A model generated the notes under the pieces. That model saw nothing but the letters and a program-made list of their open reading frames with translations, was not told the origin of the DNA and did no database searches. DNA of 64,000 bases from Opitutales bacterium (GTDB lineage: Bacteria; Verrucomicrobiota; Verrucomicrobiia; Opitutales; UBA953), in NCBI GenBank assembly GCA_017531845.1, contig JAFXKI010000011.1, positions 62,001 through 126,000 of the forward strand. The letters run 5' to 3'. Shown one piece after another: positions 36,024 to 55,668 of this stretch. The position numbers and the translations under genes are program-made. Position 1 is the first letter of the stretch. Every line of letters starts with the position of its first letter.

Positions 36024-36038
36024 TTGTAATTATTACAA
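36024..36038. promoter_or_regulatory. 7-1-7 Fur-family (PerR-like) box 1 of the U32 gene
   Basis: TTGTAAT-T-ATTACAA, perfect 7-1-7 palindrome, extended to TTTTGTAATTATTACAAAA at 36022-36040. Same sequence family as the boxes at 53195 and 53229. Confidence 0.6.
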
Positions 36039-36065: not shown

Positions 36066-36080
36066 TTGTAATAATTACAT
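36066..36080. promoter_or_regulatory. 7-1-7 Fur-family (PerR-like) box 2 of the U32 gene
   Basis: TTGTAAT-A-ATTACAT, one mismatch, 72 nt before the start codon of the U32 gene. Together with box 1 it can also form a 17-bp stem, so an mRNA hairpin is the alternative reading. Confidence 0.55.
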
Positions 36081-36151: not shown

Positions 36152-37426
36152 ATGCTTCAAAAACCCGAATTGCTTCTACCGGCGGGAACGTTCCAACGGC
36201 TCAAAATTGCGCTCGCTTACGGTGCCGACGCCGTCTATGTCGGCATGCCGTCGATGTCGCTCCGCGCTACGGTCGGGCTTTCTCAGGAAGAGCTCGAGGA
36301 AGGCGCGCGCCTGATGCACGCCGCCGGAAAAAAAATTTACGTTGCGCTGAACCTTTTTTCCAAAAATGCGGACATCGAAAAACTTCCTCTGATAGCGGAA
36401 CGCCTGCACAAGGCGGCTCCCGACGGCGTAATTGTTTCCGACCCGGCGATTTTCATGTTTTTGCGGGAACGCCTTCCGGAAATCCCGCTCCACGTTTCCA
36501 CGCAGGCAAATATTTCCTCGTGGGCAACCGTTGAGTTTTGGCAAAAACTCGGTGCCGAGCTTTGCGTACTCTCCCGCGAAACCACGTTTGACGAAATTTG
36601 CGAAATCCGCCGCCGCGTTCCCGCGATGAAGCTGGAAATGTTCGTTCACGGTGCTATGTGCATGAGCTATTCCGGGCGATGCCTGCTCTCCGCGTTCATG
36701 ACGGGACGCAGTGCCAATCAGGGAAAATGCGCGCAATCCTGCCGCTGGAACTACAAAGTTTACCTCGAAGAAGAAAAGCGTCCGGGCGAGCTCATTTCCG
36801 TCGAAGAAGACGCTCGCGGCACTTATTTTATGAACTCGCGCGATCTTTGCCTTTTGCCGGAGCTTCCGAAAATTCTTTCCGCCGGGATTGCTTCGCTCAA
36901 AATCGAAGGTCGCAACAAAAGCGATTACTACGTCGCTCAAGCCGCCCGCGTTTACCGCGCCGCTATCGACGCCTGGTATGAAAGCCCCGAAACCTGGAAT
37001 GCCACGCCCTACATGCGCGAACTTTCCATGCTCCAAAACCGCACTTACACGCGGGGATTTTTCGACGGCGTTCCCGGTGCCGAAGCCCAAAATTACGAAA
37101 CGACCGTCAGCATCGGGAACGCGCAAAACGTAGGCATGATCATCGAAAACTCTCCGTTCACAAGCGCAGCGGGAACGCCGAAAGACGCATTCGTTCACCT
37201 CGAAATCCGCAACAAAATTTCCCTCGGAGACGAAATCGAATTTTTGATTCCCGGCATTTTCGAACCGCTCAAAATCAAGCTCTCCGCCCTTTTCAACGGT
37301 TTCACGGGCAAGCCCGCCGAATCAATTTCCGCCGGGCGCTCCGGGCAAACCGCCCTGCTGCCGCGCTCGCTTTTCCCCGAAAACCGCGTTCCCGCGCCGC
37401 TCACCATGGCGCGAAAAATTTTGTGA
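36152..37426 (+). CDS. U32-family tRNA hydroxylation protein (TrhP/YegQ-like)
   Basis: 424 residues. PELLLPAGTFQRLKIALAYG, GADAVYVGMPSMSLRA, VHGAMCMSYSGRCLLSAFMT with QGKCAQSCRW (four Cys for an iron-sulfur cluster), and LKIEGRNKSDYYVAQAARVY are U32 landmarks in TrhP order. Family members use prephenate in forming 5-hydroxyuridine at tRNA position 34. Earlier annotation as a protease is probably wrong for this branch. Two PerR-like boxes upstream suggest redox or iron control of this cluster enzyme. Confidence 0.85.
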   Translation: MLQKPELLLPAGTFQRLKIALAYGADAVYVGMPSMSLRATVGLSQEELEEGARLMHAAGKKIYVALNLFSKNADIEKLPLIAERLHKAAPDGVIVSDPAIFMFLRERLPEIPLHVSTQANISSWATVEFWQKLGAELCVLSRETTFDEICEIRRRVPAMKLEMFVHGAMCMSYSGRCLLSAFMTGRSANQGKCAQSCRWNYKVYLEEEKRPGELISVEEDARGTYFMNSRDLCLLPELPKILSAGIASLKIEGRNKSDYYVAQAARVYRAAIDAWYESPETWNATPYMRELSMLQNRTYTRGFFDGVPGAEAQNYETTVSIGNAQNVGMIIENSPFTSAAGTPKDAFVHLEIRNKISLGDEIEFLIPGIFEPLKIKLSALFNGFTGKPAESISAGRSGQTALLPRSLFPENRVPAPLTMARKIL

Positions 37427-46942: not shown

Positions 46943-47046
46943 AATAATTTGGATATTGGTTGTTAGAAAAAATAGGGTTTGTAATAACTAAAAGAACGAA
47001 GTAATCCGAGGAGGAGAAAGCCCCCGCAGACGTCGCAGGGATTGTC

Positions 47047-52361: not shown

Positions 52362-53066
52362 TTAAATCATGCAGCTTTTTCCGGAACATCCGCAGGAACC
52401 GCCCTCCGCCTTCGCACGGCGATGCTCAAGCGCTTTTTGGTAAACCTTTTCCGCTTGTTCCCAATCCACAATATTCCAATACGATTTAACGTATTCCGCC
52501 TTGCGGTTCTGATACTGCAGATAGTAGGAATGCTCCCAAAGGTCGAGCGCGAGAATCGGGCGGCCGCGTTCAATTCCGGGAACGACGCTTTCCGGCATGA
52601 GCGGATTGTCCTGATTCGGCGTAGAACAAACGGCGAGAGAACCGTCTTTTTTCAAAATAAGCCACGCCCAGCCCGCGCCGAAATGCGACATCGCTTTCGC
52701 TTCAAACTGTTCGCGGAAAGCATCAAACGAGCCGAAATCTTTTTCTATCGCCTTTGCGAGCTCGCCGACCGGCGCGCCCTGCCCGTTCGGCGTAAGGCTT
52801 TTCCAGAAAAACGCGTGGTTGACGTGCCCGCCGCCATTGTTACGCACCGCCGTACGAATCGCTTCGGGAACGTGGTGCAAGTGGTGAATCAAGCGTGCCG
52901 GACACTCCGGTGCTTCAAACTCCGGTGCTTTTTCCAGCGCGGCATTCAGGTTCGCAACATACGCCGCGTGGTGCTTGCCGTAGTGAAATTCGAGCGTGCA
53001 CTTTTGCATGTTCGGTTCGAGCGCATCCAAGGCGTAGTTCAGGGGCTTTTGTTCGTATTTTTTCAT
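52362..53066 (-). CDS. sod: superoxide dismutase (Fe/Mn type) with Cys-rich C-terminus
   Basis: 234 residues. KKYEQKPLNYALDALEPNMQ start, CTLEFHYGKHHAAYVANLNA (metal His), GGGHVNHAFFWKSLTP (metal His), SHFGAGWAWLILKKDG and DLWEHSYYLQYQNRKAEYV (metal Asp and His) complete the site. The last ten residues, SCGCSGKSCM, hold three Cys absent in ordinary Fe/Mn dismutases and may bind metal (inference). The upstream divergent gap carries two PerR-like boxes. Confidence 0.94.
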   Translation of the reverse strand: MKKYEQKPLNYALDALEPNMQKCTLEFHYGKHHAAYVANLNAALEKAPEFEAPECPARLIHHLHHVPEAIRTAVRNNGGGHVNHAFFWKSLTPNGQGAPVGELAKAIEKDFGSFDAFREQFEAKAMSHFGAGWAWLILKKDGSLAVCSTPNQDNPLMPESVVPGIERGRPILALDLWEHSYYLQYQNRKAEYVKSYWNIVDWEQAEKVYQKALEHRRAKAEGGSCGCSGKSCMI

Positions 53067-53126: not shown

Positions 53127-53148
53127 CGGGAACGTAAAAGCGTTCCCG
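53127..53148. other. inverted motif pair in the sod leader
   Basis: CGGGAACG (53127-53134) and CGTTCCCG (53141-53148) face each other with a 6-nt loop, within the sod upstream region. The arm order is the reverse of that in the terminators. Confidence 0.5.
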
Positions 53149-53194
53149 CCGATGACGCTTTATTTTCAACAAAATTTAAGACTTTGCAAGAAAA

Positions 53195-53209
53195 TTGTAA
53201 TAATTACAA
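53195..53209. promoter_or_regulatory. 7-1-7 PerR-like box, proximal to sod
   Basis: TTGTAAT-A-ATTACAA, perfect 7-1-7 palindrome, 128 nt before the sod start and 95 nt before the peroxiredoxin start. Confidence 0.65.
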
Positions 53210-53228
53210 ATTTATCATTGACATTATT

Positions 53229-53243
53229 TTGTAGTTATTACAA
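53229..53243. promoter_or_regulatory. 7-1-7 PerR-like box, proximal to peroxiredoxin
   Basis: TTGTAGT-T-ATTACAA, one mismatch, 60 nt before the peroxiredoxin start. TTGACA at 53218-53223 between the boxes is a plausible -35. Confidence 0.6.
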
Positions 53244-53303: not shown

Positions 53304-53867
53304 ATGTCATTGATTAACAAAGAAATCGCGGACTTCACCGTCCAATCCTACCAGAACAACAAGTTCGTTCCCGTCTCCAAGAAAGACGTTCTCGGCAAAT
53401 GGAGCGTGTTTTTCTTCTATCCGGCAGACTTCACTTTCGTCTGCCCGACCGAGCTCGAAGACCTCGCGAACAAGTACGAAGAATTTAAGAAAATCGGCTG
53501 CGAAATTTACTCCGTCTCCTGCGACACGCACTTCGTCCACAAAGCGTGGCACGATGCTTCCAAAATCATCAAAAAAATCCAGTATCCGATGCTCGCGGAT
53601 CCGACCGCCGCGCTCGCCCGCGATTTTGACGTGATGATTGAAAGTGCCGGGCTCGCCGAACGCGGAACCTTCATCGTCAACCCGGAAGGCAAAATCGTTT
53701 CCTACGAAGTCGTTGCCGGCAATATCGGGCGCAATGCGGACGAACTTTTCCGCCGCGTGCAGGCGTTGCAATTCGTTGCCGAACACGGCGATGAAGTTTG
53801 CCCGGCGAAATGGCAACCCGGCGCCAAAACGCTGAAGCCGAGCCTCGACCTCGTCGGCGCTTTGTAA
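53304..53867 (+). CDS. ahpC: 2-Cys peroxiredoxin (AhpC type)
   Basis: 187 residues. FYPADFTFVCPTELEDLANK holds the peroxidatic Cys, DEVCPAKWQPGAKTL the resolving Cys, with a C-terminal YF-type segment replaced by SLDLVGAL. It reduces H2O2, organic hydroperoxides and peroxynitrite. The reductase is encoded 127 nt downstream. Two PerR-like boxes precede it. Confidence 0.95.
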   Translation: MSLINKEIADFTVQSYQNNKFVPVSKKDVLGKWSVFFFYPADFTFVCPTELEDLANKYEEFKKIGCEIYSVSCDTHFVHKAWHDASKIIKKIQYPMLADPTAALARDFDVMIESAGLAERGTFIVNPEGKIVSYEVVAGNIGRNADELFRRVQALQFVAEHGDEVCPAKWQPGAKTLKPSLDLVGAL

Positions 53868-53994: not shown

Positions 53995-55668
53995 ATGAAT
54001 TTTTCCGACTCCATCTACGATGCCGTCATTATCGGCGCCGGTCCCGCCGGGCTCTCTGCCGCAATTTACCTTTCCCGCGCGCGTTTTAGCGTGCTCGTGC
54101 TTGAGCGCGAAAACATCGGCGGGCAAATCACCATCACCGACGAAGTCGTCAATTACCCCGGCGTTTTGCACGCCTCCGGCAAAGCGCTCACGGAAACAAT
54201 GCGGCAACAGGCGGAAAATTTCGGAGCAGAGTTTTTGACGGCCGAAGCGCGGGAACTCGATTTCACGGGAACGGTCAAAACCATCAGGACAACGCGCGGA
54301 GACATTCGTGCGCTCGGTGTTGTCGTCGCAGCGGGAGCGCGTCCGCGCGCGGTCGGATTCAAAGGGGAAGCAGAATTCCGCGGGCGCGGTGTCGCCTACT
54401 GCGCAACCTGCGACGGAGAATTTTTTACGGGGAAGGAACTGCTCGTCATCGGCGGCGGATTTTCCGCCTGCGAAGAAGCGATTTTCCTCACGCGCTACGC
54501 AAAAAAAATTACGATGCTCGTGCGTCGCGACGAATTCTCCTGCGCGCAAAGCGTTGCGGAAGAAGTTTTGGCAAATCCGAAAATTTCGGTGCGTTTCAAC
54601 ACGGAACTCTTGGAAATTCGCGGGAACGCGGCACCCGAAAGTGCCATTTTGAAAAATAATAAAACCGGGCAAACGGAGGAATTTCGGACGGAAGACGGCG
54701 ACTCTTTCGGCGTTTTCGTCTTCGTCGGCTACGCTCCCGCAAGCGATTTAATCAAAGATAAAATCGGAATCGACAAAGACGGATTCGCGATTTGTGACGA
54801 AGAAGGAAAAACCGGAATCGACGGCGTTTACGTCGCGGGCGATTTGCGCCGCAAACGCTTGCGCCAAGTCGTTACCGCCGTTGCCGACGGCGCAACTTCC
54901 GCCACCGCGCTCGAAAAATATCTGTCCGACGCACGCAAACTTGCCGGCATCACGACGCGTGCTTCCCGCGAAATCCGCAAGCCCGCCGCCCACGAAAAAC
55001 CGCCTGCAACGGAAAGCGTTCCCGCAAAAGATTCCGAAAACGCCGACAACGACGGAAAATTCTTCGACGAAGCCGCACGCGCCCAACTTCAAGGCGTTTT
55101 CGCCCGCTTCGAAAATAAAATCGTCCTCGCGGCGGAACTCGACGACAGCAACGCCGTTTCCGACGAACTGAAAAACTTCCTCGAAGAAATCGCCGAACTT
55201 TCCGACAAAATCGAATTACGCTTCGGCACTCCCGCGGGAACGGACGCAACTGCGCTTCGCCCTTGCGTCACGATTTGCGATGCCGACGGAAAATCTCGCG
55301 GAGCAAGTTTCCACGGCGTTCCCGGCGGACACGAAATCAACTCCTTCATCATCGCTCTTTATAACGCCGCCGGTCCGGGACAAGCGCTCGACGACGCCAC
55401 GCGGGAACGCATCCGCGCGCTCGCACCGCGCAAAATCGAAGTGCTCGTTTCGCTTTCCTGCACGCAGTGCCCGGAAGTCGTCGTCGCGACGCAACGCATT
55501 GCACTGGAAAATCCGGAAATTTCAACCGATGTCCTCGACATCGCACACTTCCCCGCGATCCGCGAACGCTACAACGTCATGAGCGTTCCCGCGATCGCCG
55601 TAAACGGCAAAATTATCGCCTTCGGCAAAAAATCGCTCCCGCAGATCCTCGAAATTCTGGAGCATTAA
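53995..55668 (+). CDS. thioredoxin-reductase-like flavoprotein with C-terminal AhpF-type thioredoxin-fold domains
   Basis: 557 residues. The N-terminal ~310 residues are a TrxR-like FAD/NAD(P)H module: DAVIIGAGPAGLSAAIYLSR, GVAYCATCDGEFFTGKELLV (redox CxxC), and GIDGVYVAGDLRRK. A charged linker (~320-360) leads to two thioredoxin folds; the second has VSLSCTQCPEVVVATQRIAL (CxxC) and MSVPAIAVNGKIIAF. AhpF normally has these folds at the N-terminus, so the order is swapped. It probably reduces the peroxiredoxin encoded just upstream. Confidence 0.88.
   Translation: MNFSDSIYDAVIIGAGPAGLSAAIYLSRARFSVLVLERENIGGQITITDEVVNYPGVLHASGKALTETMRQQAENFGAEFLTAEARELDFTGTVKTIRTTRGDIRALGVVVAAGARPRAVGFKGEAEFRGRGVAYCATCDGEFFTGKELLVIGGGFSACEEAIFLTRYAKKITMLVRRDEFSCAQSVAEEVLANPKISVRFNTELLEIRGNAAPESAILKNNKTGQTEEFRTEDGDSFGVFVFVGYAPASDLIKDKIGIDKDGFAICDEEGKTGIDGVYVAGDLRRKRLRQVVTAVADGATSATALEKYLSDARKLAGITTRASREIRKPAAHEKPPATESVPAKDSENADNDGKFFDEAARAQLQGVFARFENKIVLAAELDDSNAVSDELKNFLEEIAELSDKIELRFGTPAGTDATALRPCVTICDADGKSRGASFHGVPGGHEINSFIIALYNAAGPGQALDDATRERIRALAPRKIEVLVSLSCTQCPEVVVATQRIALENPEISTDVLDIAHFPAIRERYNVMSVPAIAVNGKIIAFGKKSLPQILEILEH

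Follow-up and report, generated by a model that had tools for sequence, protein, structure and literature searches.

Within the window, a stretch of 64,000 nucleotides from an Opitutales genome, a superoxide dismutase gene (sod) and a peroxiredoxin gene (ahpC) are transcribed away from each other across an AT-rich gap of 237 bp. A preliminary description of this DNA had placed two palindromes of 7-1-7 geometry in the gap, one perfect and one mismatched, and had regarded the flanking genes as oxidative-stress genes. Both points hold, since the palindromes lie at 53195-53209 and 53229-53243, and Pfam gives Fe/Mn sod and ahpC on the two sides. A second pair of boxes, at 36024-36038 and 36066-36080 and absent from that description, is found upstream of a U32-family peptidase gene. 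The features of the two regions are as follows.

36024..36038, no strand assigned: exact box TTGTAATTATTACAA upstream of the U32 peptidase gene (pattern scan)
36066..36080, no strand assigned: second U32 box TTGTAATAATTACAT, one mismatch, 42 bp from the first (pattern scan)
36152..37426, plus strand: U32-family peptidase gene, 424 aa, predicted regulon member (Pfam; G003 and G006 also have the boxes at this gene)
52362..53066, minus strand: sod, Fe/Mn superoxide dismutase, 234 aa (Pfam Sod_Fe_C, 135.4 bits)
53195..53209, no strand assigned: putative operator 1, TTGTAATAATTACAA, an exact 7-1-7 palindrome, kept at ahpC in G003, G005 and G006
53218..53223, plus strand: predicted -35 hexamer TTGACA of ahpC, read from the sequence, 5 nt before operator 2
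53229..53243, no strand assigned: putative operator 2, TTGTAGTTATTACAA, a 7-1-7 palindrome with one mismatch
53304..53867, plus strand: ahpC, peroxiredoxin, 187 aa (Pfam AhpC-TSA, 132 bits)
53995..55668, plus strand: thioredoxin-reductase/AhpF-like flavoprotein gene with a C-terminal thioredoxin domain (Pfam Pyr_redox_2, Thioredoxin_3), probably co-transcribed with ahpC

Operators 1 and 2 are 34 bp apart, start to start. Because box 2 starts 5 nt past TTGACA, it takes up the spacer of the predicted ahpC promoter and reaches into the -10 region, which is the placement that a repressor occluding the promoter would be expected to have. The order of box 1, TTGACA and then, after 5 nt, box 2 is found in G000 (the window's own genome), G003, G005 and G006, and an exact version of operator 2 is present at the equivalent ahpC position in G005 and G006. 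In G001, TTGACT stands in place of TTGACA at ahpC.

The window contains four sites at up to one mismatch, two of them exact. At up to three mismatches there are six sites against 1.65 expected, a count matched in 1 of 100 shuffles, and when 105 permuted half-site palindromes were compared the real one alone had more than one site in the window (up to one mismatch). Across the window's own genome (1.69 Mb) the box occurs at seven sites at up to one mismatch, against none for the mirrored pattern, and at 14 against five when two mismatches are allowed. All seven lie 32-128 bp upstream of genes and represent five promoters, namely those of sod/ahpC (two sites), the U32 peptidase (two), dps, pyruvate formate-lyase (pfl) and catalase (katA). 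Random scatter of the 15-mer, the outcome against which the preliminary description had proposed a genome scan, is thus not what is seen. The boxes are paired at ahpC, at the U32 gene and at dps, where they are 34, 42 and 47 bp apart, respectively, the partner of the dps site being a two-mismatch site (C11:274726).

None of the two-mismatch sites in this genome was counted as a regulon target. Two are possible targets by position: C8:176172, 14 bp from a SufBD gene (L011 4173-4187), and C11:159455, 4 bp from a gene for an AhpC-TSA-family, thioredoxin-like and lipoprotein-like product (L015 4456-4470). Site C4:99283 is inside a gene, and C9:108979 (window position 46979), about 36 bp before an acyl-carrier-protein start named by eye, is probably due to chance. 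The remaining two, C1:1695 and C6:13113, lie in similar stretches near contig ends. Box-like sequences with one to two mismatches were seen in such stretches at or near contig ends in both G000 and G003 (L012 1695-1709, L013 4614-4628 and L040 572-595), and these are perhaps part of a repeat, not operators.

Over the eight genomes of the genus, 37 sites at up to one mismatch were found against one for the control. By reading each place, 33 of the 37 could be assigned upstream of six target groups: ahpC/sod (11 sites), dps (8), U32/thioesterase (6), pyruvate formate-lyase (4), katA (2) and perR or rubrerythrin-perR (2). One further site is at a malic-enzyme-like gene and three, one of them in G004, are at nothing clear. 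The malic-enzyme-like gene, named by eye, is preceded by an exact TTGTAATTATTACAA that ends 4 bp before it (L051 2963-2977, in G006), a target unseen in the other genomes. Exact sites are present in six of the eight genus genomes, in 0 of 29 genomes from the rest of the family and in 1 of 20 from the rest of the order; that last site, in G044, was dismissed as an operator because it lies inside an open reading frame. In four genomes the pyruvate formate-lyase box is 32-38 bp before the start (L010 5267-5281, L037, L044 and L053), so that a glycyl-radical enzyme would come, unexpectedly, under a predicted peroxide regulator.

The preliminary description had also called for a search for fur and perR homologues. 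Exactly two Fur-family genes were found in the genome: P0001, whose residues mark it as a PerR, and the Fur-type P0002. The first of these lies outside the window:

G000:C11:42406-42843: P0001, PerR, with the Fur-family domain PF01475 (96.5 bits, cut-off 23.1)

The best match to P0001 among solved structures is Bacillus subtilis PerR, in which the regulatory metal ligands are His37, Asp85, His91, His93 and Asp104. The corresponding residues of P0001 are all present (H34, D82, H88, H90 and D101), as is the structural zinc site formed by two CXXC pairs (C93, C96, C132 and C135). Moreover, P0001 carries Asn58, not Arg, in the recognition helix and Asp101, not Glu, at the peroxide-sensitivity position, a combination used as a PerR criterion in the portion of PMC8638851 consulted. 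P0002 has Arg and Glu at these two Fur-marking residues. On sequence scores, P0001 is outside the narrow named PerR groups of NCBIfam, as it falls below both equivalog cut-offs (NF052545, 91.1 of 180 bits; NF047406, 73.3 of 200 bits). An AlphaFold model of the G003 orthologue, which is 97% identical to P0001, has a mean pLDDT of 84.9 and displays the Fur-family fold, with residue Thr54 carried on helix 53-66. Against the PerR structure 3f8n this model gives Z 14.1 and rmsd 2.4 over 134 residues, a score that other Fur-family chains equal. The nearest named relatives of P0001 come from gut metagenome-assembled genomes of Verrucomicrobia/Opitutales, one being Candidatus Spyradosoma merdigallinarum. 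The perR gene of the window's genome is itself preceded only by a three-mismatch box, ATGAAATCATTCCAA, and no box was found near perR in G007.

In a scan of named genomes, relatives of the genus PerRs were found in Sumerlaeota, Spirochaetes, Clostridia and Bacteroidales, and in some of these other-phylum relatives the box stands directly ahead of perR or of a rubredoxin-perR operon. The branch is recognised by the helix signature S[KR]TTVYN. A set of 127 distinct upstream regions was assembled from regulators with helix S-x-T, extended with Clostridia, Bacteroidota and Spirochaetota regions. At up to one mismatch, TTGTAATNATTACAA is upstream of 37 of these 127 perR genes, where shuffles gave a mean of 0.03 and a maximum of 1; the other 90 have no box at this threshold within 370 nt upstream. 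The Clostridia genome G059 has just two exact sites, one at rubredoxin-perR and the other at a peroxiredoxin gene. When ten genomes from other phyla were pooled, 35 sites at up to one mismatch were counted against 24 for the control, with one genome giving 2 against 12, so a bare one-mismatch count says little in these genomes.

One member of the genus, G004, has a differing PerR-like protein, which is 39% identical and has the helix SLATVYNCL. Its ahpC (80% identical) has TTAGAATTATTCTAA upstream, and no TTGTAAT box is present in the 260 nt read upstream of this gene. At rubrerythrin-perR, G004 carries CTTGAATTATTCTAA, a two-mismatch version of the TTAGAATTATTCTAA-type box at ahpC; at the same gene arrangement G002, with helix SRTTVYNTL, carries TTGTAATCATTCCAA. 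A search for TTAGAATNATTCTAA in the same 57 genomes of genus, family and order gave a match in nine, with 0 for the control. Two of the matches precede further SLATVYNCL regulator genes, by 44 and 32 bp, and the seven SRTT genomes have none. A phylogenetic tree places the seven SRTT regulators in a clade of their own (SH-aLRT 91); the 17 further Opitutales regulators used, that of G004 included, fall in a second (SH-aLRT 92). Read from these sequences, G004 appears a clear case of a natural regulator-operator swap within a genus, and a gain from another phylum is possible.

The two helices point to a residue that may specify the box. The proposal, held tentatively and at somewhat less than even confidence, is that Thr54 of P0001 (Ala57 in B. 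subtilis PerR) sets base 3 of the half-site, Thr giving G (TTGTAAT) and Ala, Met or Ser giving A (TTATAAT). The prediction was written in advance, with Bacteroidota and Spirochaetota as replication sets. From 138 distinct regulators 42 were informative: those with Thr divided into 36 with G, two with A and one tie, and those without Thr into none with G and three with A. Fisher's test gives p 0.0017, a statistic that ignores kinship; with kinship corrected for, one or two independent pairs remain, in the predicted direction and without significance. Because so few pairs remain, the helix code is put forward as a hypothesis, for which the Thr-for-Ala pattern is suggestive only. In replication the G box was found at up to one mismatch in 2 of 7 Bacteroidota and 9 of 66 Spirochaetota cases, and the A box in none and two, respectively; no informative non-Thr case turned up in these sets, and the Thr-to-G side alone could be read. 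A comparison of L170 (SLTT, G box) with L139 (SKAT, A box) favours the third over the second helix residue. The exceptions are L108 and L156, which have Thr with the A box nearer, and L265, a tie. L175 (SKAT, hence Ala) is contrary to the code, its best match being TTGTAACGAATACAA with two mismatches.

Taken as a whole, these data indicate that the palindromes are very probably operators of the genome's own PerR, P0001, which would recognise a box shifted by one base. The earlier suggestion of a PerR-like or Fur-family regulator with a shifted recognition sequence is thereby supported by the residues of P0001, by the recurrence of the box in the genus at oxygen-defence genes (sod, ahpC, dps, catalase, rubrerythrin-perR and perR), by its pairing with perR in other phyla and by its replacement at ahpC in G004. 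The predicted mechanism is as follows. P0001 would be a metal-loaded Fur-family dimer, the Fe(II)- or Mn(II)-bound form of which would occupy both boxes; on box 2 it would cover the ahpC spacer and -10 region and so block RNA polymerase, and the same pair of boxes would repress sod on the opposite side of the gap. Peroxide would then oxidise the iron-bound ligands and PerR would be released from the boxes, switching on ahpC, sod, dps, catalase, the U32 peptidase and pyruvate formate-lyase, together with rubrerythrin-perR or perR in some relatives. Base 3 of the box would be G rather than A because P0001 belongs to the separate S[KR]TTVYN branch, with Thr54 as the candidate residue. A point against the PerR reading is pyruvate formate-lyase, an odd gene to switch on with peroxide.

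The 7-1-7 geometry is common to Fur, Zur and PerR sites, and P0002 is a Fur-family protein of the same genome, so the boxes could be Fur-type operators of P0002 through which iron, not peroxide, controls the genes. This is nevertheless improbable. P0002 has the Fur-marking Arg and Glu, P0001 has Asn and Asp where a Fur pairing calls for those residues, and the box pairs with a PerR gene in other phyla. Moreover, no iron-uptake genes are found at the seven sites of this genome, and no P0002 orthologue was found in G002 (92% complete) or G007 (90% complete), yet these genomes still bear boxes at rbr-perR and dps. Control by zinc through a Zur protein is more improbable still. The half-site TTGTAAT differs by a single base both from the Gram-positive Zur half-site, TCGTAAT, and from that of PerR, TTATAAT (half-sites as given in the section of PMC545781 consulted), and the Gram-positive Zur box TCGTAATNATTACGA is one base per half away. 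However, the genome has two Fur-family genes only, neither of which has a Zur model as its best match, and the targets are peroxide and superoxide genes, with zinc-uptake or transporter genes at 0 of the 7 sites. The Zur and iron-Fur readings were accordingly set aside on the regulator residues, the targets, base 2 of the box and the distribution of P0002.

The binding of P0001 to the box is predicted from sequence comparison, and an unrelated regulator using the same 15-bp palindrome might be imagined; it is very unlikely, given the Fur-family letters and geometry, the presence of the box at PerR genes in several phyla and the swap in G004. That the pair is a chance AT-rich palindrome is scarcely conceivable. 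Although the sod-ahpC gap is AT-rich, this explanation was rejected on the shuffles, the mirrored controls (7 against 0 in the genome, 37 against 1 in the genus) and the permuted half-sites, and the positions are conserved in G003, G005 and G006.

The system of P0001 is most likely a variation on known PerR systems, with a regulon that, as predicted, combines an operator shifted at base 3, a PerR branch of its own and an unusual target list. In B. subtilis, PerR controls catalase, ahpC, dps/mrgA and perR itself. P0001 and the boxes share with that protein and its box TTATAATNATTATAA the 7-1-7 geometry, the metal and zinc ligands, the helix Asn, the Asp at the peroxide position and the same kinds of target (catalase, ahpC, dps and perR). 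In contrast, both boxes depart from the canonical TTATAATNATTATAA in having G at base 3 on the left and C at the matching place on the right. The helix is SRTTVYNT in P0001 and SVATVYNN in B. subtilis PerR, and structural alignment of the N-terminal domain gives 37% identity over 83 residues. Pyruvate formate-lyase and the U32 peptidase are predicted targets beyond those of B. subtilis PerR, and the lineage, Opitutales, is another. The Gram-positive Zur box shares the G at base 3 and differs at base 2, where it has C and the present box T; its targets and regulator residues also differ. That PerR boxes can differ from lineage to lineage although the kind of target is kept is known from delta-proteobacteria (Rodionov et al., 2004; PMC545781), and none of the delta-proteobacterial PerR boxes in the section consulted is TTGTAATNATTACAA. 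In the open-licence literature no paper was found with the box pattern or its four versions, or with a PerR box together with Verrucomicrobia, and absence from print is not claimed. PMC6476982 was rejected as a prior report of the box, as in the text available from that paper the sequence occurs in a primer only.

The consensus of the Irr ICE box is TTTAGAATTATTCTAAA, and the TTAGAATNATTCTAA of the SLATVYNCL Opitutales regulators equals the ICE core. The window's genome and six of its seven genus mates are without an exact copy of TTAGAATNATTCTAA and, unlike the Irr/ICE comparison group, P0001 has a different helix and retains both CXXC pairs of the structural site. In six genomes of another genus (g2; L300-L305), a conserved multihaem cytochrome gene, assigned by Pfam to Cytochrome_C7 in L305, has TTAGAATNATTCTAA at 116-370 bp upstream, which suggests that a respiratory complex there is controlled in an Irr-like or PerR-like manner.

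The Bacillus consensus is the usual query for PerR operators, and a shift at base 3 would hide from it whole regulons in Opitutales, many Clostridia, some Bacteroidales and Spirochaetes. The pairing of regulator and box offers a test case for specificity change in the Fur family, with ahpC and rbr-perR carrying, within a single genus, two operator types matched to two regulators. Between PerR and Fur boxes an Asn-to-Arg switch is already known (cited in PMC8638851); were the helix code true, the two residues together would allow PerR operators to be predicted from sequence, and in this genus nature would have exchanged a regulator and its operators jointly. In gut anaerobes, the regulon would also place the oxygen-labile pyruvate formate-lyase under a predicted peroxide regulator.

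A separate feature of this DNA is the heptamer GGGAACG/CGTTCCC, which together with CGGGAAC is the commonest 7-mer of the window. There are 206 copies against about 7 expected from base composition, within and between genes (for example at 53133-53150). Its density is 3.2 per kb in the window, 2.7-4.5 in G002, G003, G004, G005 and G006, 1.1 in G001 and 0.4 in G007, and 0.16 per kb in 13 other Opitutales loci.
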